Of a stretch of 64,000 nucleotides of DNA, positions 21,883 to 44,374 are shown piece after piece (the first letter of the stretch is position 1; each line of letters begins with the position of its first letter). Made by a program: the position numbers and the translations under genes. The notes under the pieces are model-generated. The model did no database searches. It saw nothing but the letters and a program-made list of their open reading frames with translations, and was not told the origin of the DNA. Source of the stretch: Massilia aurea (lineage in GTDB: Bacteria > Pseudomonadota > Gammaproteobacteria > Burkholderiales > Burkholderiaceae_D); assembly GCF_014200505.1 (NCBI RefSeq), contig NZ_JACHBX010000002.1:558001-622000 (forward strand). Reading direction: 5' to 3'.

Positions 21883-21982
21883 CAAGGGCTGCGCCCGCCG
21901 CTTCCAGTCTTGGTAACAATTGCTCTCACTTTTTTGCTGTTACCTGTGGCTGGAATTTGCAACAATTGCATCCGTTTGCACG

Positions 21983-22010
21983 TTGGCGACGCTGTTCCTT
22001 CAGGTATTAT
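21983..22010 (+). promoter_or_regulatory. Possible sigma-70 promoter of prsT
   Basis: There is a -35-like TTGGCG (21983-21988), a 16-bp spacer and a -10 TATTAT (22005-22010), about 60 bases before the prsT ATG. No sigma-54 -24/-12 pattern is visible here, in contrast to the PEP-CTERM gene at 26752-27567. Confidence 0.4.
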
Positions 22011-22072
22011 TTGTTGTTGAGGAATTTCGCTATCTGGCGAAACAACGAACTCCATTGCCTGAGGAATCCCAC

Positions 22073-24847
22073 ATGTCGCGCCACGCTACCAAGCTTACTC
22101 TTACCGCCCTGCTGTCCGGCGCCATCCTTGCTGCCGGTCTGTCCGGTTGCAACCGCACCCAGTCGACCGAGACCCTGCTGGCCGAAGCCACTGACTATCA
22201 AAAAAAGGGCGATATCAAGGCGGCGCTGATCCAGTTGAAGAATGCCGTGGCCAACAGCCCGGAAAATGGCGAAGCGCGCATGGCGCTGGGTACCCTGCAA
22301 TTGTCGACTGGCGACGCCGTGTCGGCTGAAAAAGAATTCGGCCGCGCCCGTTCGCTGGGCATCCCGGCAGCGCGCGTGCTGCCGCTGCTCGGCCAGGCGC
22401 TGACGCAGCAAGGCAAGTTCAAGGAAGTGCTCACCGAGATCACGCCCGAAGCGGCGGCCGGTTCGGCCCCACTGCTGAGCCTGCGCGCTGACGCGCTGCT
22501 GGGCAGCGGCAAGCCGGAAGAAGCGCAGCAGGCCTACGCCGCCGCGCTGACGGCCGATGCCAATTCGGGCGAGGCCCTGATGGGCATGGCGCGCATGGCT
22601 GCCGCCAAAGGCGACCGTGAAGCAGCCACGCGTTACGTCGAAGATGCTGTGGCCAAGGATTCGAAGAATCCGGAAGTCTACATGATGCAGGGCTCGATGC
22701 TGCGCATGATGAACAAGCCCGACGAAGCCCTGGCGGCCTATAGCCAGGCGCTCAAGCTCAAGCCGGATCACCGCGGCGCCCACATTGAAAAGGCGTACGT
22801 CGAGATCGCGCGCGGCAAGTTCGATGCGGCCAAGATCGAAGTCGAAGCAGCGGAAAAGAATTCGCCGGGCAGCCTGTTGGTGGTGTACACGCGCGCCCTG
22901 TTCGAGTTCTCGCAAGGTAAATACTCGGCAGCCAAAGACGCGCTGGCCAAGATCCTCAAGATCGCGCCCGATCACCAGCCGAGCATCCTGCTGGCCGGCG
23001 CGTCCGAGCTGAACCTGGGCGGCACCCAGCAGGCCGAGCAGCACCTGCGCAAATACCTGCAAAGCAATCCGGACAACGTCTACGCCCGCAAGCTGCTGGC
23101 CCAGGCGCAACTGCGCAATTCGCAGCCAGCCGATGCCGCCGCGACCTTGGCGCCGGCCCTGAAGGATGCGCCGCAGGATGCGCAACTGCTGGCCCTGGCA
23201 GGCGAGTCGTACATGCAGGTGCGTGACTTCGACAAGGCCAGCAGCTACCTCCAGCAGGCCGCCACACTGGCGCCGCAAGCTGCCGCCGTGCGCACCTCGC
23301 TTGGCCTGTCGCGCCTGGCGCAGGGTGACCAGGCCCGTGGCCTGAGCGAACTCGAAGCGGCCGCCACGCTCGATCCGAAATCGATCCAGGCCACGATGGC
23401 CCTGGTGCAGACCGAGATGGGCATGAAGCGCTACGACCGGGCCGAGGCCGCCGTCGCGTCGCTCGAAAAGCAGCAGCCTGACAGTGCACAGGTGCAGCAG
23501 CTCAAGGGCGCCGTGTACATGGTCCAGGGCAAGAATGCGCCGGCACGCACGGCATTCGAGAAAGCCGTGCAGCTGCAGCCGACGTTCCTGCCGGCTGTCA
23601 CCAATCTGGCACGCCTGGACATGCAGGAGAAAAAGCCGGACGCTGCCAAAGCGCGCTTCACGGCCTTCCTCGAGAAAGACAAGAACAATGCCGACGCCAT
23701 GGCGGCATTGGGTGAGCTGGCGCTGCTGCAGAAGAACACGGCCGAAGCCACCACCTGGTTCGAAAAAGCCAGCACGGCCAATCCGCAGGCAACGGCCCCG
23801 GCACTGAAACTGGGCGCGCATTACCTGCGCACCGACCAGGCACCAAAAGCGCTGACGCTGGCCCGCAAGTTGCAGACCACGAACCCGACCGATGCCGGCG
23901 TGCTCGAAATGCTGGGCCAGTCGCAGGTCGCCACCAAGGATCTGAACGGCGCACTCGATACCTACAGCAAGCTGGCCAATGTGCTGCCAAAATCGGCACC
24001 GGCGCAGATTCGCCTGGCCGAGGTGCAGCGCCTGCTCAAGAACGACAGCGCAGCCGCCGGCCACATCAAGCGCGCGATCGACCTCCAGCCTGATTTCATG
24101 CCTGCGCGCCTGATGCAGGTGGATGCGGCAATGCGCGCCAAGCGCCCGGACGATGCGCTGGCAGCAGCGCGCCAGGCGCAGCAGGTCGCGCCAAAAGCGC
24201 CACTGGGCTTCGTGCTCGAAGGCGACATCCTGATGAGCCAGCAAAAGAGCGCGCCTGCCCTGCAGGCGTATGAAAAGGCCGTGGCGCTGGCGCCGTCGTC
24301 AGAACTGAACGCCAAGGTCGTGCAGGCGATGCAGGCCGGTGGCAAGAGCAAGGAAGCGCTGGAGCGCGCCGAAAAGTGGCTGGCCCAGAACCCGTCTGAT
24401 GCACGCATGGCCATGATGGTCTCCGAGATCAATATGGCGGGCAAGGATTACAAGGCGGCCATCGCCCGTCTGGAATCCGTGCAAAAGACGGCGCCGGATA
24501 ACCCGATGGTGCTGAACAATCTGGCCTGGGCCTACCAGCAGGTGAAGGATCCGCGTGCGCTGCCAACTGCCGAGCAGGCATTCAAGGTTGGCGGCGACAA
24601 TCCGGGCGTGATGGACACGCTGGGCTGGATGCTGGTCGAGCAGGGCAATGTCGCACGCGGCCTGCCACTGCTGCAAAAAGCCAGCACCCAGGCGCCGAAC
24701 GCCATGGAGATTCGTTATCACCTGGCACAGGCGCTGAACAAGAGTGGCGACAAGGCTGGCGCCAAGCGCGAGCTCGACAAGCTGCTGTCAGCGAACACGC
24801 CATTCGCGCAAGCCGATGAGGCACGCGCACTGCTCAAGACGCTGTAA
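22073..24847 (+). CDS. prsT: PEP-CTERM system TPR-repeat lipoprotein PrsT
   Basis: A 924-aa outer-membrane-type lipoprotein of tandem TPR units, the PrsT family (TIGR02917) that accompanies exosortase/PEP-CTERM systems. The signal peptide ends in the lipobox LSGC (about residue 24). The rest is almost entirely TPR helices, for example NPEVYMMQGSMLRMMNKPDEA. ATG 22073 has GAGGA eight bases upstream. Upstream in-frame ATGs lack ribosome sites and would hide the lipobox. It likely scaffolds polysaccharide or protein export. A strong terminator follows. PrsK/PrsR are not adjacent. Confidence 0.92.
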   Translation: MSRHATKLTLTALLSGAILAAGLSGCNRTQSTETLLAEATDYQKKGDIKAALIQLKNAVANSPENGEARMALGTLQLSTGDAVSAEKEFGRARSLGIPAARVLPLLGQALTQQGKFKEVLTEITPEAAAGSAPLLSLRADALLGSGKPEEAQQAYAAALTADANSGEALMGMARMAAAKGDREAATRYVEDAVAKDSKNPEVYMMQGSMLRMMNKPDEALAAYSQALKLKPDHRGAHIEKAYVEIARGKFDAAKIEVEAAEKNSPGSLLVVYTRALFEFSQGKYSAAKDALAKILKIAPDHQPSILLAGASELNLGGTQQAEQHLRKYLQSNPDNVYARKLLAQAQLRNSQPADAAATLAPALKDAPQDAQLLALAGESYMQVRDFDKASSYLQQAATLAPQAAAVRTSLGLSRLAQGDQARGLSELEAAATLDPKSIQATMALVQTEMGMKRYDRAEAAVASLEKQQPDSAQVQQLKGAVYMVQGKNAPARTAFEKAVQLQPTFLPAVTNLARLDMQEKKPDAAKARFTAFLEKDKNNADAMAALGELALLQKNTAEATTWFEKASTANPQATAPALKLGAHYLRTDQAPKALTLARKLQTTNPTDAGVLEMLGQSQVATKDLNGALDTYSKLANVLPKSAPAQIRLAEVQRLLKNDSAAAGHIKRAIDLQPDFMPARLMQVDAAMRAKRPDDALAAARQAQQVAPKAPLGFVLEGDILMSQQKSAPALQAYEKAVALAPSSELNAKVVQAMQAGGKSKEALERAEKWLAQNPSDARMAMMVSEINMAGKDYKAAIARLESVQKTAPDNPMVLNNLAWAYQQVKDPRALPTAEQAFKVGGDNPGVMDTLGWMLVEQGNVARGLPLLQKASTQAPNAMEIRYHLAQALNKSGDKAGAKRELDKLLSANTPFAQADEARALLKTL

Positions 24848-24899: not shown

Positions 24900-25003
24900 A
24901 CCGTTGCATACAGCATCCTGGCGATGATATTTATTCATCCTATCGAACGCTCAATTTATTGATGTCGAGATAAGATGTCATGACATAAATAAGGATGTTT
25001 ATC

Positions 25004-25666
25004 GTGAACGACGATTCATACGGAATCCGGCTTACCGATACTTCGGACGGTCGTAACTCGGCCAGCATGCTGATCAACAGGATGTACGCCTGGCGTGGCT
25101 ATTCCGGAGATCACCAGCCGAGTAACGACCCCAATCGCATCACGCTGACCGCCACCGACAAGGGCGACGTCGTCGGCACCCTCAGTATCGGCATCGATTC
25201 CGAGGTCGGGCTGATGGCCGATGAAGTCTTCGGCGCTGAGCTCGACGCCCACCGCGCCAATGGCGCCCGCCTCTGCGAGTTCACCAAATTTGCGTTCGAT
25301 CCGTCAGTGCGCTCGAAAACCGCGCTGGCCAACGTGTTCCACCTGGCCGTCATCTACGCCCGCGACATGCATGGCTGCACCGACATCATCATCGAGGTCA
25401 ATCCGCGCCACCGCCGTTTCTACGAGCGCATGCTGGGGTTCCGCAAAGAAGGCGAGCTCAAGGTCAATACGCGGGTGGATGCGCCGGCCTACCTGCTGCG
25501 CGTGAACCTCAACTACGTAACCGAGCAGATCAGTATTTTCGGCGGCACCTTTGCCGCCGATGGCGAAACCGAAGAGCGCTCGTTCTACCCATACTTCTTT
25601 TCGCCCCGCGAGGAACGCGGTATCATCAACCGCCTGCTGCGCATGGATGAGTCACATCCGGCGTAA
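25004..25666 (+). CDS. FeeM-like long-chain N-acyl amino acid synthase, copy 1
   Basis: A GNAT-fold enzyme of the FeeM/NasX type, which moves a long acyl chain from acyl carrier protein to an amino acid. The fold is visible in CEFTKFAFDP (beta4 region) and VNPRHRRFYERMLGF (the GNAT C-terminal motif). The start is best at GTG 25004, eight bases after AAGGA. The ATG at 24995 directly abuts that site. A paralogue lies at 28551-29285. Linkage of such synthases to PEP-CTERM/exosortase loci has been reported from environmental DNA work. The acceptor amino acid cannot be told from sequence. Confidence 0.8.
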   Translation: MNDDSYGIRLTDTSDGRNSASMLINRMYAWRGYSGDHQPSNDPNRITLTATDKGDVVGTLSIGIDSEVGLMADEVFGAELDAHRANGARLCEFTKFAFDPSVRSKTALANVFHLAVIYARDMHGCTDIIIEVNPRHRRFYERMLGFRKEGELKVNTRVDAPAYLLRVNLNYVTEQISIFGGTFAADGETEERSFYPYFFSPREERGIINRLLRMDESHPA

Positions 25667-25744
25667 GCGACTGCGCCGCCGGTATGCGCCCTGCTCTTCC
25701 TGCGGCGCCGACCAGCTTGTCCCTACTTTTTCGCAATGTCCCCG

Positions 25745-26623
25745 ATGAGCAATCCGTTCCAGTACGAGCAGGCGTTTTCACGCAATATTGGCTGGGTCAC
25801 GCCCGCCGAACAGCAGCAGTTGCGTGGCAAGCGCATTGCCATTGCGGGCGGCGGTGGCGTCGGTGGCGTGCACCTGCTGACGCTGGCCCGTCTGGGCGTC
25901 ACGCATTTTCATATTGCCGACTTCGACACCTTCGACATCCCCAACTTCAACCGCCAAGTGGGCGCGATGATGTCGACCGTCGGCCAGCCCAAGGCCGACG
26001 TACTGGCGCGCATGGCGCGCGACATCAACCCCGACATCGACATCAAGATCTTTCCCGAAGGCGTCCATGCCGACAATCTTGATGAATTCCTGGCCGGCGT
26101 CGATCTGTACGTCGATGCGCTCGACTTCTTCGCCTTCGATGCGCGCCAGCAGACGTTTGCTGCCTGTGCACGGCTCGGTATCCCGGCCACCACGGCGGCG
26201 CCACTGGGCATGGGCGCTGCCCTGCTCAACTTCATGCCGGGCAAGATGACGTTCGAGGAGTATTTCGGCTGGGGCGATTTGCCGGAGCAGGAAAAGGCGA
26301 TCCGCTTCGTGGTCGGCCTGGCGCCGGCTGGTCTGCACCGCAACTACCTGATGGTGCCTGGTTCGGTGAACTTCGCCGAGCGGCGCGGTCCATCGACCTT
26401 CATGGCTTGCCAGCTGTGCGCCGGCATCATTGCCACCGAATCGCTCAAGATCCTGCTGGGGCGCGGCGACGTGCTGGCGGCGCCATGGGGCATGCAGTTC
26501 GACGCCTACCGCAACAAGCTCAAGCGCACGTGGCGGCCGGGCGGCAACCGGCATCCGATCCAGCGCCTGGCGATTGCCATTGGCCGGCGCCAGTTTGCCC
26601 GCATGGCCGCCGCCGGTCGCTGA
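25745..26623 (+). CDS. ThiF/E1-like adenylyltransferase-fold protein
   Basis: A protein of about 292 aa with the E1/ThiF/MoeB NAD-like fold. It has a glycine-rich loop GGGGVGGVH (about residue 37) and an adenylate-binding segment ADFDTFDIPNFNRQ containing the conserved Asn-Arg pair. Only one CxxC (ACQLC) is obvious, and no clear E1 catalytic cysteine was identified. E1-like enzymes adenylate the C-terminus of a small protein or peptide; no ubiquitin-like or ThiS-like partner is seen nearby. It follows the FeeM-like gene by about 80 bases. ATG 25736 is an alternative start; neither has a good ribosome site. Family well supported, substrate unknown. Confidence 0.8.
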   Translation: MSNPFQYEQAFSRNIGWVTPAEQQQLRGKRIAIAGGGGVGGVHLLTLARLGVTHFHIADFDTFDIPNFNRQVGAMMSTVGQPKADVLARMARDINPDIDIKIFPEGVHADNLDEFLAGVDLYVDALDFFAFDARQQTFAACARLGIPATTAAPLGMGAALLNFMPGKMTFEEYFGWGDLPEQEKAIRFVVGLAPAGLHRNYLMVPGSVNFAERRGPSTFMACQLCAGIIATESLKILLGRGDVLAAPWGMQFDAYRNKLKRTWRPGGNRHPIQRLAIAIGRRQFARMAAAGR

Positions 26624-26674
26624 ACCGTTGGCGCGGCGATTTGCTGGCGCGTCGCGCCGACGAGTCGGGCAACG

Positions 26675-26712
26675 AAAAAAAACCACTGCCGTTACCGGTA
26701 GTGGTTTTTTTC
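26675..26712. terminator. Bidirectional terminator between ThiF-like and PEP-CTERM genes
   Basis: AAAACCACTGCCG pairs with CGGTAGTGGTTTT across a TTAC loop, with one G-U pair. The stem has an A-run on the left and a T-run on the right, so it can end transcription from both convergent genes. Confidence 0.85.
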
Positions 26713-26751
26713 TTGCTTGAGAATCAGGCCTGCGCAGCAGGCCCGTAATTC

Positions 26752-27567
26752 TTAGGCAGCTTTCTTGTTGCGGCGACGTGCTGCGTACAGACCCAGCATG
26801 CCCAGGCCCAGCAGGCCAACCGATGCTGGCTCTGGCACTTCCGAAGGCTGGCCTTCGAACACGACGTCCAGCGAACCGGTGATGGTCTGGGTTGCGGTCG
26901 GCGAGAAGCGGGTCAGCTGGCCCGACTGGAACGACAGGTTGTAGAACGGGTTTGGCGAAACGAAGAAGTTTGCGCCTGGGCCGGTCAGGTTGAAGGTGGT
27001 GTCCGAACCGAAGCTGCCGCAGTTGATGCCGACGCCGGAGCCGGTGCCGCAGGTGCTCAGCGTTGGGTCCAGGTTGCCTTCACCAGCCAGTGCAATGCCG
27101 GTAGCCAGTTCGACGTCATCAGCCGTGTTTGCGAAGGTGAAGTTGCCCGAACCGGTGGTTGCGTTGGCGGTCTTGACGGTGTTGTTGCCAGCATCCAGGA
27201 ACAGCGACAGGCCACCGGTGCCTGGCAGGAACGTGAACACGGTCTCAGCGCCCGTGGTCACGAAGGTGCCTGCTGCTTTGTACAGTGCGTACATGCTGTA
27301 ACCAACGCCCAGACCCGTCGTGCCGGCCTTGACCGAAACACCGTTGCTGACGAACGACGTAGCATCCCAGTACAGCGAGACATTGAACGTACCAGCTGCC
27401 TGGTTGAACGTTGCGATTTCGGTGTAGGTGCCGCCGATACGGTCAGCGGTGAAGTTCGCGTAGCTGCCGGTCGGGTTGACTTCGAACACGCCAGCACTTG
27501 CGGTTGCGCTGAACAGGGAAGCAGCTGCGATCGATGCGGCGACGATGGTTTTCTTGAAGGCGTTCAT
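26752..27567 (-). CDS. Secreted PEP-CTERM sorting-domain protein
   Basis: A 271-aa exported protein and probable exosortase A substrate. A signal peptide (about 1-25, ending ATASA) leads a Gly/Thr/Asn-rich beta-type body. The C-terminal sorting signal has all three parts: VPEPAS, a hydrophobic helix (VGLLGLGMLGLYA) and a basic ARRRNKK tail. Only two cysteines are in the body, near GTGSGVGINC. An AGGAG site lies upstream. Its sigma-54 promoter suggests control by a PrsK/PrsR-like system, as reported for floc-forming Zoogloea. It could be related to flocculation-associated PepA, but I cannot confirm that. Confidence 0.93.
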   Translation of the reverse strand: MNAFKKTIVAASIAAASLFSATASAGVFEVNPTGSYANFTADRIGGTYTEIATFNQAAGTFNVSLYWDATSFVSNGVSVKAGTTGLGVGYSMYALYKAAGTFVTTGAETVFTFLPGTGGLSLFLDAGNNTVKTANATTGSGNFTFANTADDVELATGIALAGEGNLDPTLSTCGTGSGVGINCGSFGSDTTFNLTGPGANFFVSPNPFYNLSFQSGQLTRFSPTATQTITGSLDVVFEGQPSEVPEPASVGLLGLGMLGLYAARRRNKKAA

Positions 27568-27615
27568 TTCGTAAATCTCCTGGGTTATCTGGGGTACTGC
27601 TCACGAGGCTATATA

Positions 27616-27632
27616 AGCAATCACCGTGCCAG
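27616..27632 (-). promoter_or_regulatory. Sigma-54 promoter of the PEP-CTERM gene
   Basis: The minus strand reads CTGGCACGGTGATTGCT: TGGCACG (-24), four bases, then TTGC (-12), a near-consensus RpoN promoter. Transcription would start near 27605, about 38 bases before the ATG. RpoN-dependent control of PEP-CTERM genes through PrsK/PrsR is known in Zoogloea. Confidence 0.85.
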
Positions 27633-27655
27633 CTCAAGAGATTTGTTTTAAATCA

Positions 27656-27678
27656 AACAGTTAGCGATTCAGACTGTT
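27656..27678. promoter_or_regulatory. Inverted repeat upstream of the sigma-54 promoter
   Basis: AACAGT (27656-27661) and ACTGTT (27673-27678) form an inverted repeat with an 11-base spacer, just upstream of the -24 element. ATCAAACA also occurs twice nearby (27652 and 27683). Either could be an enhancer-binding site, but enhancer sites usually lie farther from sigma-54 promoters, so this is tentative. Confidence 0.3.
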
Positions 27679-27750
27679 CGAGATCAAACATCACTGTAAA
27701 AAATACCGACAGCATATTTCCTCCCTGAAGACGATGCTGTCAGATTGCTC

Positions 27751-28416
27751 CTACACCGGCTTGCGTACCACGACATTCCAAGTATTTCCCGAAGTAAATT
27801 CGGAGTGAATTTCATAACCTGCCGCCAACATCTTGGCGCGAAGTTCTTCGGTATGGAATGGGCTGTACAGAATGCCCTTGCGGATGCCCCAGTCATTAAT
27901 TTTTTGCGCTGCCCAGCGTAGCGGTGCGAATCCGGTTGGGTACAACAACACGTTTGCTGCCATCGTGCCGCCTGGTTTGAGCACACGCAGGATGTCGCGC
28001 AAGGCGCCATCGATCGTCGGGAAGCAGTGGATCGAGTTGGCGATATTGGCCGTGTCGAAGCTGTTGTCGGCAAACGGCAGCTGTGCCGCATCGGCGTGCT
28101 GGACAACAACCTGAGGATTATTGGCAAAACGGCGCTTGGCACCGGCCAGCATCGACGGGGCGTAGTCGATACCAGTCACCTTGACTTGCGGCAGCTTGCG
28201 GCGACGGCGCCAGTTCAGCACCATCTCGAGCAGCGTTCCGGTGCCGCATGCCACTTCCAGGTGTTCCGGACCAAAGTTCGGTCCGAAGAAGCGCATCTGG
28301 GTGCCGATGGTGCTGTTATAAGCGAAGGTCAGAATGAAGAAACCGCGCAGGTCGTACCACCACGGCTCGGAGGAATAGGCTTCGGCGATTTCGTCCCTGG
28401 TCTTACCTGTCGTCAT
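27751..28416 (-). CDS. Class I SAM-dependent methyltransferase
   Basis: A 221-aa Rossmann-fold methyltransferase. Motif I is LEVACGTGTLLEMVL (about 53-67), with the acidic motif II in VTGIDYAPSML, a motif near VQHADAAQLPF, and LRVLKPGGTM. The N-terminus (YSSEPWWYDLRGFFIL) is aromatic and may face a lipid-like substrate (inference). GAGG precedes the ATG. It lies between the PEP-CTERM gene and the second FeeM-like gene on the same strand, 134 bases after the latter. The substrate is unknown; an acyl amino acid or quinone-like lipid is possible. Confidence 0.85.
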   Translation of the reverse strand: MTTGKTRDEIAEAYSSEPWWYDLRGFFILTFAYNSTIGTQMRFFGPNFGPEHLEVACGTGTLLEMVLNWRRRRKLPQVKVTGIDYAPSMLAGAKRRFANNPQVVVQHADAAQLPFADNSFDTANIANSIHCFPTIDGALRDILRVLKPGGTMAANVLLYPTGFAPLRWAAQKINDWGIRKGILYSPFHTEELRAKMLAAGYEIHSEFTSGNTWNVVVRKPV

Positions 28417-28550
28417 GGCGCACCCTCATTGTCAAATACAAGAGCGCTGAATATAGGACGTTCCTGCCAAGCAGGCAAGGAACAAATGCAACAGAGAAAG
28501 TATGGCGGGCTGCCGCGGCCCTTGGGAAGGGACCGCAGAAGGGTGACTGA

Positions 28551-29285
28551 TTAACCGAGCTGGCGCAGGCGGTTGATGATACCGGCTTCTTCACGCTGCG
28601 AAAAGAACCATGGAAACAGCGAGCGCTCGCCCACTGCCTTGTCCTGCATGCCGCCCCACTTGGCCACCTGCTCGGTCCCGTAGGCCGTGGCGGCGCTGAG
28701 CAGCACTGCCGGCGCCTGAACGCGCGGGTTGGGCCGCGCTTCGCACACTGTCTGGAAACCCAACATGGCTTCATAGAAACGACGGTGACGTGGATTGACC
28801 TCAATGAAGATGTGCGTGCAACCATTCAGGTCGCGGGCATAGATCAGGGCCACGTGGAACAGCGAGGCCAGCACGGCCTTGGACTTGATCGCCGGATCGA
28901 CAGCCAGCTTGATGATTTCGCATACCTTGCCGCTGTTGCGCTGGGTATCGACGTAGTCGGCAAACACCTGGTCGGCCATCAGGCCGATCTCGGAATCCAG
29001 GCCCAGGCTCAAGGTGCCGAATACCTGTCCATGGTCCGAGGCGGTCAGCGTGATCCGGTTCGGATCGTTACCGATCTGATGATTACCGCTATAGCCGCGC
29101 CAAGCATACATCTTACTGATGAGCATGCTCGCGGAGTTACGCTGGGTGTCAATATCAGCCGCGCGAATGCCGAATACGCGTTCGTTGATGGTGACGTCGA
29201 TGATGCTGGGATTCATTCCGCCGTTAGCGAAGTCATCGCTGCCCAGACTTGCGCAAGGAACGGCTGGCGCTAATGTCTCGATCAT
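28551..29285 (-). CDS. FeeM-like long-chain N-acyl amino acid synthase, copy 2
   Basis: A 244-aa paralogue of the protein at 25004-25666. Both share the N-terminal RNSASMLI(N/S)(R/K)MYAWRGYSG block, DPNRITLTA, EVNPRHRRFYE and a C-terminal REE.GIINRL end. Copy 2 has a longer N-terminus and substitutions around the central strands (CEIIKLAVDP for CEFTKFAFDP), so the two may use different acyl donors or amino acids. It has a strong GGAGGAAG site. It transcribes away from the HprK-related operon region and towards the methyltransferase. Confidence 0.8.
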   Translation of the reverse strand: MIETLAPAVPCASLGSDDFANGGMNPSIIDVTINERVFGIRAADIDTQRNSASMLISKMYAWRGYSGNHQIGNDPNRITLTASDHGQVFGTLSLGLDSEIGLMADQVFADYVDTQRNSGKVCEIIKLAVDPAIKSKAVLASLFHVALIYARDLNGCTHIFIEVNPRHRRFYEAMLGFQTVCEARPNPRVQAPAVLLSAATAYGTEQVAKWGGMQDKAVGERSLFPWFFSQREEAGIINRLRQLG

Positions 29286-29435: not shown

Positions 29436-30536
29436 TCAAGCGGCCTCTGCGGTACGTGGCGACAAGAAAGCCTTGTGAAACAAGTGGCGCGCGAGCAACA
29501 CCGGTGGCATACGCAGCCAGTTTCCGCGCACATACAAGGTAAAGCGCGCTGCGCCATCGAAGCGCGTGGCGCATTCCGGGTGTAACGGCGACAGTGCGCG
29601 CAGGAAGAGCGCGTCCATCAATGGCAACAACAAGCCTGTTGGACCAAATGGCGCGGCGGCAGCCAGCGTTGCCGCTGGCACCGGCGTGCCAAAAGTGTGG
29701 GTGATGTAACGCAATGCGTAGAACAACGGGCGCGTCAGTTCCAGCGCATCGGCACGCGCCACGAGGCCATCCCAGAACCCTGGCTCGGTGTCAAAATGCA
29801 GCGCCAGGCGATGCAGATCGAACAGGTCGCGCAAGCCCTGGTCGAATTCGCCACCAAAGAACAGGTGCACGGCGCTGTGCAAGAACATGTCGTGTGGGCA
29901 CAACGTGTAGATGCCCAGCGCGCCCTGCTCACCAGGAATCGCCCGCGCTGCCGCGCGCAGCAATGCCGGATCGGGCCGCACGGGCGCCGTTTCGGGCAGG
30001 ATTGCGTGGTGCACATCGATCGCATTGCCGCGGCGCAAATGCACCATTGGGGGCAGCTCATGCATCCAGGTACGGTAATAGCGTTCGTCGTAGGCGTCAT
30101 GGTGGGCGCTGGCCCAGCCGTGAAGCATCAGCGCGCGCTCGACCTGGTCGAGGCTGTCCTTGGGCACCAGAATGTCGATGTCCGAAAACAAACGGCCGCG
30201 TCCGGACGGCAGGCCGGCCATTGCATACGCAGCGCCCTTGAGCAAAATCAGGGGCAACCCGAGCTGGGCCAGGGCGCTGCGGATGCGCTCGACCTCGTAG
30301 CCGGTCAGGCGCCGGTGGCGCAGGGCCACGATGCGCATCGCGTCCAGGTGCTCGCGCGGCTGCATCGGCACGCCATCGAGCAAACCATGCTCCTCGAGCA
30401 AATAAACGAGGATTGCGCTGAGATTGGCGCTGTCGGCCTGGCGCAGCAGGCGCTCCCAGCCCGGAAGGTCGAGGGTTTGCACTCTGGCGGGTCGGGACAG
30501 GACCTCGACCAGCAACGATGGTACGGGCGCGCTCAT
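29436..30536 (-). CDS. Nucleotidyltransferase family protein of the HprK-related A cassette
   Basis: A 366-aa protein of the putative nucleotidyltransferase family PF14907. The signature is LPLILLKGAAYAMAG followed by RGRLFSDIDILV, with two Asp residues for metal/NTP binding, then DVHHAILP. The ATG at 30536 overlaps the stop of the kinase gene by four bases (ATGA). Genes of this type accompany HprK-related kinase A and a PqqD-like protein in many betaproteobacteria with exosortase loci. The chemistry is unproven; nucleotidyl or phospho-transfer to a protein or glycan is the family-level guess. Confidence 0.8.
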   Translation of the reverse strand: MSAPVPSLLVEVLSRPARVQTLDLPGWERLLRQADSANLSAILVYLLEEHGLLDGVPMQPREHLDAMRIVALRHRRLTGYEVERIRSALAQLGLPLILLKGAAYAMAGLPSGRGRLFSDIDILVPKDSLDQVERALMLHGWASAHHDAYDERYYRTWMHELPPMVHLRRGNAIDVHHAILPETAPVRPDPALLRAAARAIPGEQGALGIYTLCPHDMFLHSAVHLFFGGEFDQGLRDLFDLHRLALHFDTEPGFWDGLVARADALELTRPLFYALRYITHTFGTPVPAATLAAAAPFGPTGLLLPLMDALFLRALSPLHPECATRFDGAARFTLYVRGNWLRMPPVLLARHLFHKAFLSPRTAEAA

Positions 30537-31450
30537 GGCGTCTCGCCAGCCAGGCCGTCGAACAGGGCAATGGCTTCGTCGAGCTGACTGTAACAGAACT
30601 CGTGGCCATCGCAGTCGTCGACCAGATTCGCCAGGCAATCGAAACCATCGGGTCCGAGCACAAAATAATTGAACGCGTTTTCAGCCACTCGCATGAATAA
30701 CTGCCCTTTCGACAGCGGCGTCAGTGTGGTGGCAGCGCCCGCCTGATAGCGCGGGAACACGACGTGGCGCGCCCTGGCCACGTCGCCGACGCGGGCGACG
30801 CTCCCGGACGGCGCTTTGAGGTGCGCGATCGTGCCCTTGGTCGTGCCGGGCACCGGCATGCCGAAGGTGGCATCGGGCGCAAACGCGCGGATGACGTCGA
30901 TCGAGGTGTTTTTCAGGCTGACCGGGCGCGCCAGCGGCACGAGCATGCCATCGCTGCGCCGTACCAGCGTCAATTCATCCGACAACAGACGCCAGCCGCG
31001 GCACACCAGCGCCGCACACAGCGTGCTTTTGCCCGAGCCGGGCGGAGCCGGCAGGACAACCGCGCAACCATTGCGCTCAACAACGGCGGCGTGCACGATC
31101 AGGTAGCGGTGGGCGCGGTTCGACACGCACCAGTTCATCACCCACTCGAACATTGGCCAGGCCTGCGCCAGCGGCAGCGGGGCAAAGGGTTCGCGGCCGT
31201 CATAGTCGAAGCATACCTGCGGGTGCCACCAGCGCCGCAACCCGGTGGAGTGCAGCAGGCGCACCTGGAAATCGGCGAAGCCGCCCGGCGCCTCGACCGG
31301 GTAGTCGCGGTACAGCGACCCGATGCCATCGGCGACGAGGGAGATATTTGATTGAACACGGCTGACGAAAGGCCCGGTGCGCAGCAACAGACCGGGGCCG
31401 CCGAGGCGCCGCACCAGTTCGGCGCGGCCCAGATCGGCTACAAGGGACAT
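30533..31450 (-). CDS. HprK-related kinase A
   Basis: A 305-aa homologue of the C-terminal kinase domain of HPr(Ser) kinase/phosphorylase (TIGR04352 type). It has P-loop PAPPGSGKST (G138 to T143 region), RLLSDELTLVRR matching the HprK downstream acidic block, and an N-terminal region unlike classical HprK. It overlaps the upstream PqqD-like gene by 13 bases and the downstream nucleotidyltransferase by four, so the products probably act together. The substrate is not HPr as far as can be seen. The Tat-like protein encoded first in the operon is a candidate target (inference). Confidence 0.85.
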   Translation of the reverse strand: MSLVADLGRAELVRRLGGPGLLLRTGPFVSRVQSNISLVADGIGSLYRDYPVEAPGGFADFQVRLLHSTGLRRWWHPQVCFDYDGREPFAPLPLAQAWPMFEWVMNWCVSNRAHRYLIVHAAVVERNGCAVVLPAPPGSGKSTLCAALVCRGWRLLSDELTLVRRSDGMLVPLARPVSLKNTSIDVIRAFAPDATFGMPVPGTTKGTIAHLKAPSGSVARVGDVARARHVVFPRYQAGAATTLTPLSKGQLFMRVAENAFNYFVLGPDGFDCLANLVDDCDGHEFCYSQLDEAIALFDGLAGETP

Positions 31451-31743
31451 GGTTCGATCAGATCCAGGCTGGAGAGTTGTCCGAGCAGGTCGGCGACATC
31501 GTCGGACAGGGTGGCGTCTTCGACGTCGAAGTGTTCGCGCAGGACTGCGGCAAGCGCCGTTTCCGAAGTAGCTGTGGTGCCCATATGTTCGAGGACGACG
31601 AGCGCCTCGAGCGTCAGCAAGTGGGTGGCACCGGAGATGTCATTAAACAACACCACTTCATCCTGCCATTGCCGGTAGTGCAGTGTTGCAGGTCCCGGAC
31701 GACGCCAGAACCCGGGTCGATCACCAGCCGTGAACTGCGACAA
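31438..31743 (-). CDS. HPr-rel-A system PqqD-family protein
   Basis: A 101-aa PqqD-like protein (TIGR04353 type). The fold is visible as VVLFNDISGATHLLTLEALVVLEHM followed by helices ending LGQLSSLDLIEP. PqqD-type domains bind the leader of a peptide or protein and hand it to a modifying enzyme. It overlaps the upstream Tat-like gene by 23 bases and the kinase gene by 13, an arrangement expected for a chaperone linking substrate and kinase. Confidence 0.82.
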   Translation of the reverse strand: MSQFTAGDRPGFWRRPGPATLHYRQWQDEVVLFNDISGATHLLTLEALVVLEHMGTTATSETALAAVLREHFDVEDATLSDDVADLLGQLSSLDLIEPCPL

Positions 31744-32311
31744 GATAGTTCCTGACCTCGCCGACAGTCCAGTACTGATTGGCGCTGACCTTGTAGTGGC
31801 CGCTGACCTTGAGTTCGTTCCACATGCGCTGCAGTGTCGGCACGTCCAGGAAGTCGATGCGCTTCGAGATCACGTTCAGATAGGCAGCTGCCAGGTGACG
31901 CCCGATATTGTAGCTATCGTACTTGGCGTTCATGACGTCCAGCAGGCTGGCCTTGTAATACGTATCGGCAAACCTGCGCTCGTTGCACGTGAAGATATCG
32001 TGGAACTTCTTGGTCTTGTTGCATGGCCATCCGTAGGCAATGGCGCACCACACCGAAGGCGACAGTGGATTGCAGCGCTGCTCTGTGGCGTTGTTGCTGA
32101 TGCCAGCCGAAATATGGGCAGAAGCCGATTCGCAGACGAAACCGGTTCTCTTCAGCGTGGCATGGCTTTCGAGCGTCCACAGCACGCCAGCCGCACCGAT
32201 GCCAGCCTTGGCCAGGCGACGGCGGGTTGCGCCATGCTTGGGCATTGCCGGCGCCTGCGGAATTTGTTGCTGCTGCGGCTCGCTACCGCTTTGTTGTTGA
32301 TCATTAGCCAC
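31721..32311 (-). CDS. Hypothetical protein with Tat-like N-terminus, heading the HprK-related A operon
   Basis: A 196-aa protein of unknown function. A Gln-rich start (about 1-25) precedes a triple arginine (30-32) and a short hydrophobic stretch LAKAGIGAAGVLWTL, like a weak Tat signal or a recognition leader. Five cysteines follow (60, 80, 89, 97, 109), then a helical C-terminus ending HGW. It is the first gene of an overlapping four-gene operon with PqqD-like and kinase proteins. That position, with the leader-like N-terminus, suggests it is the modified substrate (inference). Secretion and the modification are untested. Confidence 0.7.
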   Translation of the reverse strand: MANDQQQSGSEPQQQQIPQAPAMPKHGATRRRLAKAGIGAAGVLWTLESHATLKRTGFVCESASAHISAGISNNATEQRCNPLSPSVWCAIAYGWPCNKTKKFHDIFTCNERRFADTYYKASLLDVMNAKYDSYNIGRHLAAAYLNVISKRIDFLDVPTLQRMWNELKVSGHYKVSANQYWTVGEVRNYLVAVHGW

Positions 32312-41606: not shown

Positions 41607-42809
41607 GTGCAAGACCTGCTGCTGCTGATTCACCGCATCCCGTACCCGCCCAACAAGGGCGACAAGATCCGCTCCTACCACCTGCTCAAGCACCTGGCGC
41701 GTGACTACCGCGTGCACCTGGCCACGTTCGTCGACGATGCCGACGACTGGCAGCACGTGCCGGCGGTGGAGGCGCTGTGCGCCAGCAGCCATTTCGCCCC
41801 TCTTGATCCGCTGCGCGCCCGTGTGCGCAGCCTGGGCGCGCTCGTCAAGAACCGCTCGCTGTCGCTCGACTACTACCAGGATGCCGGCATGGCGCGCTGG
41901 GTCGACCAGGCCGTTGCCACGCACAAGATCGATCGCGTGATGGTGTTTTCGTCGCCGATGGCGCAATACGCCGACAAGCTGGGCGATGCGCGCCGTGTGA
42001 TCGACTTCTGCGATGTCGATTCCGATAAATGGCGCCAGTACGCCGAGAAAAAATCGCCGCCAATGAGCTGGCTGTACCGGCACGAAGCGCGCCAGTTGCT
42101 GCGCTACGAGCGTCAGGTCGCCAGCCAGTACGACGCGTCGCTGTTCGTCTCCGCGCCCGAGGCAGAGTTGTTCCGCAAGCTGGCACCGGAAAGCGTCGCG
42201 CGCATCGGCCACTTCAGCAACGGCGTCGATACCGAGTACTTCTCGCCCGAGCACGCGTTTGCCAGCCCGTACGCCGCCGGCGAACGCGCCCTGGTGTTTA
42301 CGGGCGCGATGGATTACTGGCCGAACGTCGACGCCGTGCAGTGGTTCTGCGACGAGGTCTTCCCGGCCTTGCGCGCGCAGGATCCGGCGCTGGCCTTCTA
42401 CATCGTCGGCTCGCGCCCGAATGCCCAGGTGCAGGCGCTCGGCGCCTTGCCGGGTGTGACCGTAACGGGCACCGTGCCCGACGTGCGCCCGTATATCCGT
42501 CACGGCTGCGTGGCGGTGGCACCGCTGCGCATCGCGCGCGGCATTCAGAACAAGGTGCTGGAAGCGATGGCCATGGCCACGCCGACGGTGGTCTCGCCGC
42601 AGGCGCTTGAAGGCATCGACGCCGCACCGGGCAGCGAGCTGGCCGTGGCCGATGGCGCGCCGGCCTGGATCGAGACCGTGGGCGCGCTGCTGGCACGCCA
42701 GCACGAACAGAACGCAAGCATGGGCCGCGCCGCACGCGCGCGCGTCGAACAGCACTATAGTTGGCCAAGCAACCTGGCCTGCATCGAGGAGCGACTGGAA
42801 TGCACGTGA
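41607..42809 (+). CDS. XrtA-associated sugar transferase, group 1
   Basis: A 400-aa GT-B glycosyltransferase of the TIGR03087 type. It starts QDLLLLIHRIPYPPNKGDK, and the C-terminal half has GAMDYWPNVDAV and PLRIARGIQNKVLEAMAMATP, the GT4 nucleotide-sugar motif region. The start is GTG 41607, four bases after the FemAB-like stop. It overlaps the exosortase gene by ten bases. It would add a hexose or uronic residue to the repeat unit on the cytoplasmic side. Confidence 0.9.
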   Translation: MQDLLLLIHRIPYPPNKGDKIRSYHLLKHLARDYRVHLATFVDDADDWQHVPAVEALCASSHFAPLDPLRARVRSLGALVKNRSLSLDYYQDAGMARWVDQAVATHKIDRVMVFSSPMAQYADKLGDARRVIDFCDVDSDKWRQYAEKKSPPMSWLYRHEARQLLRYERQVASQYDASLFVSAPEAELFRKLAPESVARIGHFSNGVDTEYFSPEHAFASPYAAGERALVFTGAMDYWPNVDAVQWFCDEVFPALRAQDPALAFYIVGSRPNAQVQALGALPGVTVTGTVPDVRPYIRHGCVAVAPLRIARGIQNKVLEAMAMATPTVVSPQALEGIDAAPGSELAVADGAPAWIETVGALLARQHEQNASMGRAARARVEQHYSWPSNLACIEERLECT

Positions 42810-44374
42810 CACCCCCATCCGGCATTGCCGGCGCCAATCTGGACGCCGCTCCCACGCCACTGGCGCGCTCGAGCGCCATGCTGATCGCGCTGGCGCTGCT
42901 CGCACCGTTCTTTCTGTATCTGGGCACCGCCGAATCGCTGGTCGCGATCTGGAACAGCTCCGAGACCTTCGCGCACGGCTACGCCATCCTGCCGATCAGC
43001 CTATGGCTGATCTGGCGCCGGCGCGACGTGTTCGATGCGATTCCCGCACGCCCGTGGGCGCCTGCGCTGCTCCTCCTGGCGGTGCTGGGGGCCGGCTGGC
43101 TGCTGGCGCGCATGGGCGAAGTGCAGGTCGTGATGCAGTACGCGTTTGTCGCCATGTTCCCGATCGTGGCGCTGGCCATGCTCGGACCGCGCCTGGCCGG
43201 GGCGCTCGCGTTTCCGCTCCTGTTTCTGCTGCTGGCGGTGCCGTTCGGCGAAGTCTTCGTCGCCCCGCTGATCAACCTGACCGCCGACTTCACCGTGTGG
43301 GCCGTGCAGGCCACCGGCATCCCGGTGCTGCGCAATGGCACCCGCTTCGAACTGCCGACCGGTTCATGGTCGGTGGTGGAAGCCTGCAGCGGCGTGCGCT
43401 ACCTGATTTCGTCGGTCACGCTCGGCTGCCTGTACGCCTACCTGACCTACCAGTCGACAAAAAAGCGTTTACTCTTTGTGGTCGTGTCGATCATCGTGCC
43501 CATCATTGCCAACGGTCTGCGCGCCTACATGATCGTGATGATCGGCCACCTGTCGGGCATGGAACTGGCCACCGGCGTCGACCACCTGATCTATGGCTGG
43601 GTCTTCTTCGGCCTGGTCATGCTGCTGATGTTCTGGATCGGCAGCTTCTGGCGCGACGACGATCCGCTGCCTGCGGCCGAACTGCCGGTGGCGGCGCGTA
43701 CCCGCCGCGATGGTGTGCCACCGGTCAGCATGGCCCGCATGGCGGCAATGTGCGCTGCCGTGGTGGCCGTTGCCGCACTGTGGCCGGGCTTTGCCCGCTA
43801 TAACGACGCGGCCAATCTCAATCCCCAGCCGGTACAGCTGACGAACGTGGCGGTCGGCTGGCCGCAGGTGGCGCCATTTACTGGCTGGACGCCGCGCTGG
43901 GTAGCGCCGGATGCCGCGTACCGCGCGACCTTCCGCAACCCCGACGCTGCGGCGCCGGTCTCGCTCGACATCATGTACTACCGCAACCAGCGCAACGGCA
44001 AGGCCCTGATCAGCTCCGTCAATACGCTGGCGACCTCCGACGACGCCTGGCATGCGCTGGGTGGCTCGGCGCGCAGCGAAACGATCGACGGCAAGCCGGT
44101 GACGCTGCGTGAAACGCGGATGACCGGTCCAGACGGCCAGTTCCTGGTGTGGCAATGGATGTCGATCGACGGCCACCTGACCTCGAACAACTACGTCGGC
44201 AAGCTGCTGCAGGCCCAGGCCAAGCTGCGCTTCCGCGGCGACGATGGCGCTGTCGTGCTGCTGTCGGCGCCGGTGGGTGACAACCCCGACGCCGCGCGCG
44301 CTGCATTGCGCGCCTTCATGACGGTGCAGGGCCAGGCGATCGAGCGTGCCATCGAGCACGCGCGCACGCATTGA
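42800..44374 (+). CDS. xrtA: Exosortase A fused to EpsI domain
   Basis: Membrane transpeptidase-like enzyme that recognises and cleaves PEP-CTERM signals. The 524-aa protein has about eight membrane segments in its first 285 residues and the predicted catalytic residues C196 (VVEACSGVRYL), R241 (ANGLRAYM) and H262 (GVDHLIYGW). The C-terminal 200 residues form an EpsI domain, probably periplasmic. Such XrtA-EpsI fusions are the usual exosortase A form. A GAGGAG site precedes ATG 42800. Its nearest visible substrate is the protein at 26752-27567. Confidence 0.95.
   Translation: MHVTPPSGIAGANLDAAPTPLARSSAMLIALALLAPFFLYLGTAESLVAIWNSSETFAHGYAILPISLWLIWRRRDVFDAIPARPWAPALLLLAVLGAGWLLARMGEVQVVMQYAFVAMFPIVALAMLGPRLAGALAFPLLFLLLAVPFGEVFVAPLINLTADFTVWAVQATGIPVLRNGTRFELPTGSWSVVEACSGVRYLISSVTLGCLYAYLTYQSTKKRLLFVVVSIIVPIIANGLRAYMIVMIGHLSGMELATGVDHLIYGWVFFGLVMLLMFWIGSFWRDDDPLPAAELPVAARTRRDGVPPVSMARMAAMCAAVVAVAALWPGFARYNDAANLNPQPVQLTNVAVGWPQVAPFTGWTPRWVAPDAAYRATFRNPDAAAPVSLDIMYYRNQRNGKALISSVNTLATSDDAWHALGGSARSETIDGKPVTLRETRMTGPDGQFLVWQWMSIDGHLTSNNYVGKLLQAQAKLRFRGDDGAVVLLSAPVGDNPDAARAALRAFMTVQGQAIERAIEHARTH

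Follow-up and report, generated by a model that had tools for sequence, protein, structure and literature searches.

We analyzed a 64,000-nucleotide stretch of the Massilia aurea genome (contig NZ_JACHBX010000002.1, positions 558,001 to 622,000; here called the window), focusing on a block of five genes (24995 to 29285) within its XrtA exosortase locus. The plus strand carries FeeM-A, a predicted N-acyl amino acid synthase (NAS; 24995 to 25666; PF21926, 180.9 bits; cutoff, 27), and, with its start 69 bp behind, a predicted ThiF/E1-like adenylating cyclase (PRK08223; 25736 to 26623; PF00899, 146 bits; NCBIfam NF006077, 463 bits; cutoff, 266; residues 5 to 293 of 295), hereafter ThiF, whose closest homologs are 292 amino acids (aa) long (i.e., start at 25745). 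The minus strand carries FeeM-B, a second predicted NAS (28551 to 29285; PF21926, 168.7 bits); 134 bp downstream of it, a UbiE/PmtA-like S-adenosylmethionine methyltransferase (27751 to 28416), recognized by class I models and predicted to stand in for a flavin oxidase (FDO); and PepA, a flocculation-type PEP-CTERM surface protein (26752 to 27567; NF033554, 156 bits; cutoff, 80; PEP-CTERM motif at 244 to 267). An RpoN-type (−24/−12) site (CTGGCACGGTGATTGCT; 27632 to 27616, minus strand) precedes pepA, with 68 bp separating it from the match to the PepA profile. The two groups of genes converge on a hairpin (26675 to 26712; no strand assigned) with an approximately 10-bp stem between A and T runs, which, judged by eye, is probably a two-way intrinsic terminator. 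A first-pass annotation of this DNA had listed two FeeM paralogs, ThiF, an RpoN-preceded PEP-CTERM protein, and a methyltransferase, and all five genes were recovered at nearly the same positions.

The ThiF residues R16, G38-G40-G41-G43, D64, N72-R73, K86, and D130 did not vary among 14 relatives or among 32; we presume that they have adenylation roles, assigned from ThiF/MoeB. The best PDB profile match was TcdA (E value, 4e-23), with a similarity spanning approximately 125 residues. TcdA needs no ubiquitin-like protein to activate and cyclize its small carboxylate. FeeM-A matched FeeM (2g0b; E value, 8e-13), and a single NCBIfam model, PRK14852, covers both proteins (FeeM-A at 32 to 207 and ThiF at 313 to 590). 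In 120 Burkholderiales genomes, PRK08223 scored above its cutoff in 25 and FeeM scored >90 bits in 27, with the 90-bit line having been placed after the scores were known, at the gap from 92.9 to 47.7. FeeM exceeded this line in 23 of the 25 ThiF genomes versus 4 of the 95 genomes without ThiF (Fisher P value, 2e-18, with kinship ignored). At the Pfam cutoff, FeeM was present in 45 genomes (i.e., 23 of 25 with ThiF and 22 of 95 without). Two genomes had ThiF only (G103 and G049), and four had FeeM only at >90 bits (G005, G039, G055, and G067). The two genes were ≤10 kb apart on one contig in 21 of the 25 ThiF genomes, approximately 39 kb apart in G111, and on different contigs in G092. Six of the 25 ThiF matches were within open frames of 664 to 742 aa, and the one that was read out was a ThiF-oxidase fusion. 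Thus, ThiF and FeeM do travel together, as the first-pass annotation had supposed, and the lack of co-occurrence that it had named as a refutation is not what the genomes show. The counts and the Fisher test rule out the possibility that FeeM lies beside ThiF by chance, and the neighborhood kept across genomes indicates that the block is not a chance arrangement.

This pairing is known from the acyl-oxazolone pathway, in which an amino acid is N-acylated by an acyltransferase with a FeeM-like fold, ATP-dependent cyclization by a ThiF-like protein gives an oxazolone, and an FDO (a member of the nitroreductase superfamily that is fused to or located beside ThiF) carries out the desaturation (PMC10404671, PMC12856293, and PMC12479983). 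Regarding the order of the steps, TrzS cyclizes first, and TyzABC can act in either order (PMC10404671, PMC12856293, and PMC12479983). Oxazolone rings open on contact with acid or alcohol (PMC12856293). Because this pathway has been published (PMC10404671 and PMC12856293), and the NAS-ThiF-nitroreductase trio has been described in Massilia kyonggiensis (PMC12479983), ThiF plus FeeM is not the unrecorded route proposed in the first-pass annotation, and no ubiquitin-like protein is expected. None was seen, as the annotation had remarked. There was also no recurrent small neighbor among the clustered open reading frames (ORFs), although ORFs of <60 aa were excluded and the ORF caller missed genes in loci with lower G+C content. 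The annotation overlooked the unusual feature of the block, i.e., that it has no oxidase and has a dedicated methyltransferase and a second synthase instead. Its claim of novelty accordingly falls for the ThiF-FeeM pair and survives in another form, for the exchange of oxidase and methyltransferase.

No FDO was detected in the window by profile. Searching the whole genome with the FDO alignment produced a best score of 22.2 bits over 33 residues, from an ordinary nitroreductase, versus 433 to 515 bits in three control genomes. The genome has five PF00881 nitroreductases, only one of which gave this 22-bit fragment. On the basis of this search, we rejected an oxidase located elsewhere in the genome. 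The window genome and 13 further methyltransferase genomes yielded no FDO (best, 23 bits over approximately 30 residues), while nine oxidase genomes scored 433 to 533 bits. The 26 genomes searched comprised 14 with the methyltransferase, all without FDO, and 12 congeners, of which 6 had FDO and ThiF and 6 had neither FDO nor ThiF over the cutoff. Among the 24 ThiF genomes in which both partners were sought, 14 had the methyltransferase only, 9 had FDO only, 1 had neither, and 0 had both. These 24 were chosen rather than randomly drawn, i.e., 14 for the methyltransferase, 12 congeners (with the 6 ThiF-less ones excluded), and 4 extra ThiF genomes (G013, G014, and G111, with FDO, and G049, with neither partner).

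We also annotated ThiF neighborhoods by profiles, using loci from the surveyed genomes and 80 named loci, the latter being the best 80 of at least 509 confirmed matches. The profiles were built partly from loci that were later matched (four methyltransferase and PepA members and seven separate and three fused oxidases). Following the removal of six duplicates (L104, L162, L169, L115, L123, and L117), 94 loci had an FDO within 5 kb, 17 had the methyltransferase and no FDO (checked mostly over 10 kb on each side), and 6 had neither. Near-copies (e.g., L125 and L126, with identical ThiF) were kept in these counts, and three loci (L083, L133, and L139) were classed as oxidase type on weak matches (113 to 136 bits). 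The genome surveys found METHYLTRANSFERASE, which we read as a dedicated ThiF partner, in 4 of 120, 11 of 245, 7 of 399, and 3 of 398 genomes, or 16 distinct genomes once the overlap between draws is allowed for, with three of the surveys scoring part of the first-look candidates (e.g., 11 of 14). ThiF was present in all 16 methyltransferase genomes and was ≤1.6 kb from the methyltransferase in 15, which, together with the named loci L105 and L114, make up the 17 methyltransferase loci. The two genomes added by the last draw (G878 and G892) had ThiF, two FeeM genes, a PepA-like protein, and no FDO nearby. The ORFs of ThiF and the methyltransferase share 4 bp in G155, where a weak FeeM-like ORF (85 bits) lies directly upstream and PepA is absent. 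We therefore read the block, with a probability of roughly 0.65, as a form of the acyl-oxazolone lipid pathway that lacks the oxidase and carries a methyltransferase, situated in an XrtA exosortase/exopolysaccharide (EPS) locus.

The second synthase is a regular part of this arrangement. Two FeeM genes were present in 15 of the 17 methyltransferase loci (one in 1 locus and none in 1 locus), and the 94 FDO loci had two in 3, one in 49, and none in 42. FeeM-A and FeeM-B, which are 58% identical over 214 aa, have an invariant core in common and belong to separate clades; they may make two products, as the first-pass annotation had suggested. In the FeeM tree, FeeM-A was in a starred 16-row set that included eight oxidase-locus rows, next to the lone synthase carried by oxidase-type Massilia loci, and FeeM-B was in a starred 8-row clade, all from methyltransferase loci. 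Seventeen alignment columns (one a gap) separate FeeM-A and the oxidase-locus FeeM proteins from FeeM-B (e.g., Y166V and L172T). The third FeeM-like protein of this genome, a weak match at 36 bits, is encoded elsewhere (G000:C6:123806-124213, listed as L003).

The window ThiF and FeeM-A are near those of FDO-type Massilia, and ThiF is 86% identical to that of the oxidase-type Massilia locus L106. In a quick ThiF tree (115 rows), the methyltransferase label required six changes, at least three of which were forced by well-supported branches, and in a careful tree (66 rows), it required seven, at least three of them forced. A single origin of the methyltransferase arrangement was rejected when the 16 methyltransferase-type ThiF proteins were held together (P value of the approximately unbiased [AU] test, 3e-65). 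The long-branched L214 was excluded from the careful tree, from the AU test, and from the independent-pair count given below. Since the ThiF tree rejects one origin, the exchange of oxidase and methyltransferase recurred. Placing the eight Massilia methyltransferase-type ThiF proteins in one clade was compatible with the data (AU P value, 0.52), and these eight loci may form one clade. Between the window and genus g92, the methyltransferase was 81 to 83% identical and ThiF was 61 to 62% identical, which we read as a methyltransferase that moved on its own and was recruited more than once.

An RpoN-type site preceded PepA in all eight Massilia methyltransferase loci (the window, L073, L105, L114, and L206 to L209), in one of the four genus g92 loci, and in none of the five other methyltransferase loci, among them L214, which lacks PepA. 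Overall, 11 such sites were found in the 17 methyltransferase loci, whereas 20 mononucleotide shuffles gave 0.2 on average. PepA-profile matches of >100 bits were confined to methyltransferase loci among the loci annotated in the first profile round.

By homology, FeeM-A would acylate an amino acid, probably an aromatic one, with a fatty acyl group. By analogy with TyzB, TrzS, and OxzB, ThiF would then adenylate the carboxylate of the N-acyl amino acid with ATP, with the amide oxygen closing the ring to give a saturated 2-alkyl-oxazol-5(4H)-one; the active-site residues for this cyclization, with their presumed roles, are present. Known pathways use the flavin oxidase to make the 2,3-double bond; here, the methyltransferase is found in its place and would most likely methylate the activated N-acyl amino acid or the oxazolone, at the acidic ring C4 or at the ring oxygen. 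Methylation of the ring would also make it last. FeeM-B may feed the same route either with a second N-acyl amino acid or with a different acyl chain. The resulting lipid would reside in the membrane or be secreted, and it would be produced together with EPS and the PEP-CTERM surface protein. The steps up to the oxazolone are thus predicted from homology, and we infer the position of the methyl group. A more specific and more tentative proposal, which we consider possible rather than probable, is that several Burkholderiales lineages exchanged the oxidase for a methyltransferase acting on the same saturated oxazolone (leading to an alpha-methyl amino acid lipid if C4 is methylated or to a 5-methoxyoxazole if O5 is) and that the two synthases feed a single class of ring-stabilized lipids produced along with PEP-CTERM surface proteins. 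The variant may point to a lipid not yet described. The predicted class, which was absent from the literature searched (sources available in part), would occur in culturable environmental bacteria and be tied to the exosortase/EPS surface system. We know of no mechanism for the link between exosortase/EPS loci and NASs.

Several observations weigh against the oxidase-less pathway reading or narrow it. The either/or rule is not absolute, given that six ThiF loci have neither partner nearby (L089, L153, L172, L177, L181, and L216), that the divergent ThiF of G049 is accompanied by neither methyltransferase nor FDO, and that in G638 the methyltransferase and ThiF are on separate contigs. ThiF is not always adjacent to FeeM, as 42 of the 94 oxidase-type loci had no FeeM match of >80 bits within 10 kb, some of them being cut by contig ends. 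Only three independent pairs were available on starred branches, too few for a test; on average, the oxidase was opposite to the methyltransferase in 2.9 of these 3, and the second FeeM accompanied the methyltransferase in 1.7 of 3. The pathway is known here from genes, with its product and reactions predicted. Finally, a PepA-like protein was present in 16 of the 17 methyltransferase loci, so the methyltransferase could serve PepA rather than ThiF; the methyltransferase locus without PepA, L214, speaks against this.

The alternatives differ in what the methyltransferase or ThiF would act on. The methyltransferase might modify the side chain or the acid of the amino acid (O- or C-methyl tyrosine or a methyl ester), with ThiF still activating and the loss of the oxidase being a separate fact that gives a saturated product. 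Precedents are the stieleriacines, N-acyl (dehydro)tyrosines that carry an O- or C-methyl group, and the Stieleria neptunia cluster, in which a UbiE-like methyltransferase accompanies NAS, ThiF, and nitroreductase, although the authors of that study judged this enzyme the less likely candidate for the O-methyltransferase (PMC12479983). Moreover, L086 (1060 to 4062) and L087 (7496 to 10465) have an O-methyltransferase of another family (Methyltransf_2, PF00891, scanned in L087) between ThiF and the oxidase. Such methyltransferases in loci that keep the oxidase indicate that methylation is not necessarily incompatible with desaturation, a further point against our preferred reading. However, independence of the two activities predicts genomes with both, and none was found among the 24 ThiF genomes searched for both; likewise, FDO was absent from all 17 methyltransferase loci over the stretch examined. 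We regard methylation of the side chain or the acid as unlikely.

The closest structure to the methyltransferase is PmtA, a phospholipid N-methyltransferase, which counts against a role in the ThiF pathway and raises the possibility that an enzyme of this type merely shares the region with envelope genes. The likeness is in fold only, with 21% identity to structure 8ys9 and 34.5 bits against the PmtA model NF045882 (cutoff, 390), and the constant company of ThiF in the 16 methyltransferase genomes, adjacent in 15, makes this explanation improbable. ThiF might instead be an E1 enzyme that activates the C terminus of a protein (either PepA or some small carrier), with FeeM and the methyltransferase modifying a surface protein or peptide. 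Its E1 fold family and its site within a PEP-CTERM/XrtA locus fit this idea, but the recurrent neighbors of ThiF are FeeM and either the oxidase or the methyltransferase, the strong PepA matches of the first profile round are confined to methyltransferase loci, PepA is missing from L214, and the relatives TyzB and TrzS act on N-acyl amino acids (PMC10404671 and PMC12856293). We consider a protein-directed ThiF very improbable, and the peptide-modifying branch of the first-pass annotation found no support.

Several further observations concern the surroundings of the block and of ThiF. The block is flanked by PrsT, an XrtA/PEP-CTERM tetratricopeptide repeat lipoprotein (21920 to 24847, plus strand; TIGR02917, 851 bits), and by an HPr-rel-A cassette (29436 to 32311, minus strand) with an NTP_transf_5 protein, an HprK-related kinase A (TIGR04352, 389 bits), a PqqD-like chaperone (TIGR04353), and a 196-aa protein (31721 to 32311) that has no Pfam or NCBIfam match and is a possible substrate. 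Beyond the cassette are XrtA-system genes for an export protein, a chain-length determinant, a kinase, an ATPase, a FemAB protein, exosortase A (XrtA; 42761 to 44374, plus strand; TIGR03109, 345 bits; cutoff, 208), and an amidotransferase. Among other ThiF loci, L110, L135, L140, and L143 have a more distant oxidase subtype (270 to 294 bits; on the strand opposite to ThiF in three of the four), which hints at further exchanges of the last enzyme. Three Pseudoduganella/Duganella loci (L153, L172, and L177) have a FeeM-ThiF pair with no oxidase or methyltransferase nearby, followed by genes that resemble groES/groEL by eye. The oxidase loci without FeeM (L118 and others), many of them from Janthinobacterium, Duganella, and Rugamonas, have a ThiF-oxidase pair, and the FeeM profile matched nothing within 10 kb of it. 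Beside ThiF in L069 (7707 to 12227), L076 (4881 to 9600), and L089 (10426 to 15074) is a possible export set comprising an MMPL transporter, a DUF1302 protein, and a LolA-like protein, as identified by Pfam in L069 and by clustering elsewhere; in L069 and L076, the set separates FeeM from ThiF-oxidase. For Rubrivivax gelatinosus, a polysaccharide locus found by transposon mutagenesis is tabulated with two UBA/ThiF-type genes directly ahead of the polysaccharide export gene (PMC3684757).

Compared with known systems, the locus resembles OxzAB of Pseudoalteromonas rubra, TyzABC, and TrzAS of Mycobacterium (PMC10404671 and PMC12856293) in that a synthase adjoins a ThiF-type cyclase, a likeness at the superfamily level. 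It differs from them in that no FDO was found genome-wide, in having a methyltransferase and a second synthase instead, and in its XrtA/PEP-CTERM setting. TcdA, the t6A-cyclizing E1-like enzyme that is the nearest solved relative of ThiF by profile, acts on tRNA, unlike the role proposed here. A FeeM-type synthase beside exosortase genes, as in the window, was reported by Craig et al. 2011 (as cited in PMC11072679). The kyonggic acid, thalassotalic acid, and stieleriacine clusters, one of them in Massilia, have the NAS-ThiF pair in common with our locus, and the stieleriacine cluster of S. neptunia also has, by description, a UbiE-like methyltransferase; unlike our locus, all three retain the nitroreductase (PMC12479983). 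In the candidate clusters of a saturated producer, M. umbonata, that study detected neither ThiF nor nitroreductase (PMC12479983). The literature searched, available in part, contained no oxidase-less ThiF-methyltransferase cluster. What the present locus adds is a comparison in which the synthase and ThiF are constant and the last enzyme is swapped, and this bears on the role of ThiF in oxidase-containing N-acyl tyrosine clusters, which has been termed enigmatic (PMC12479983).

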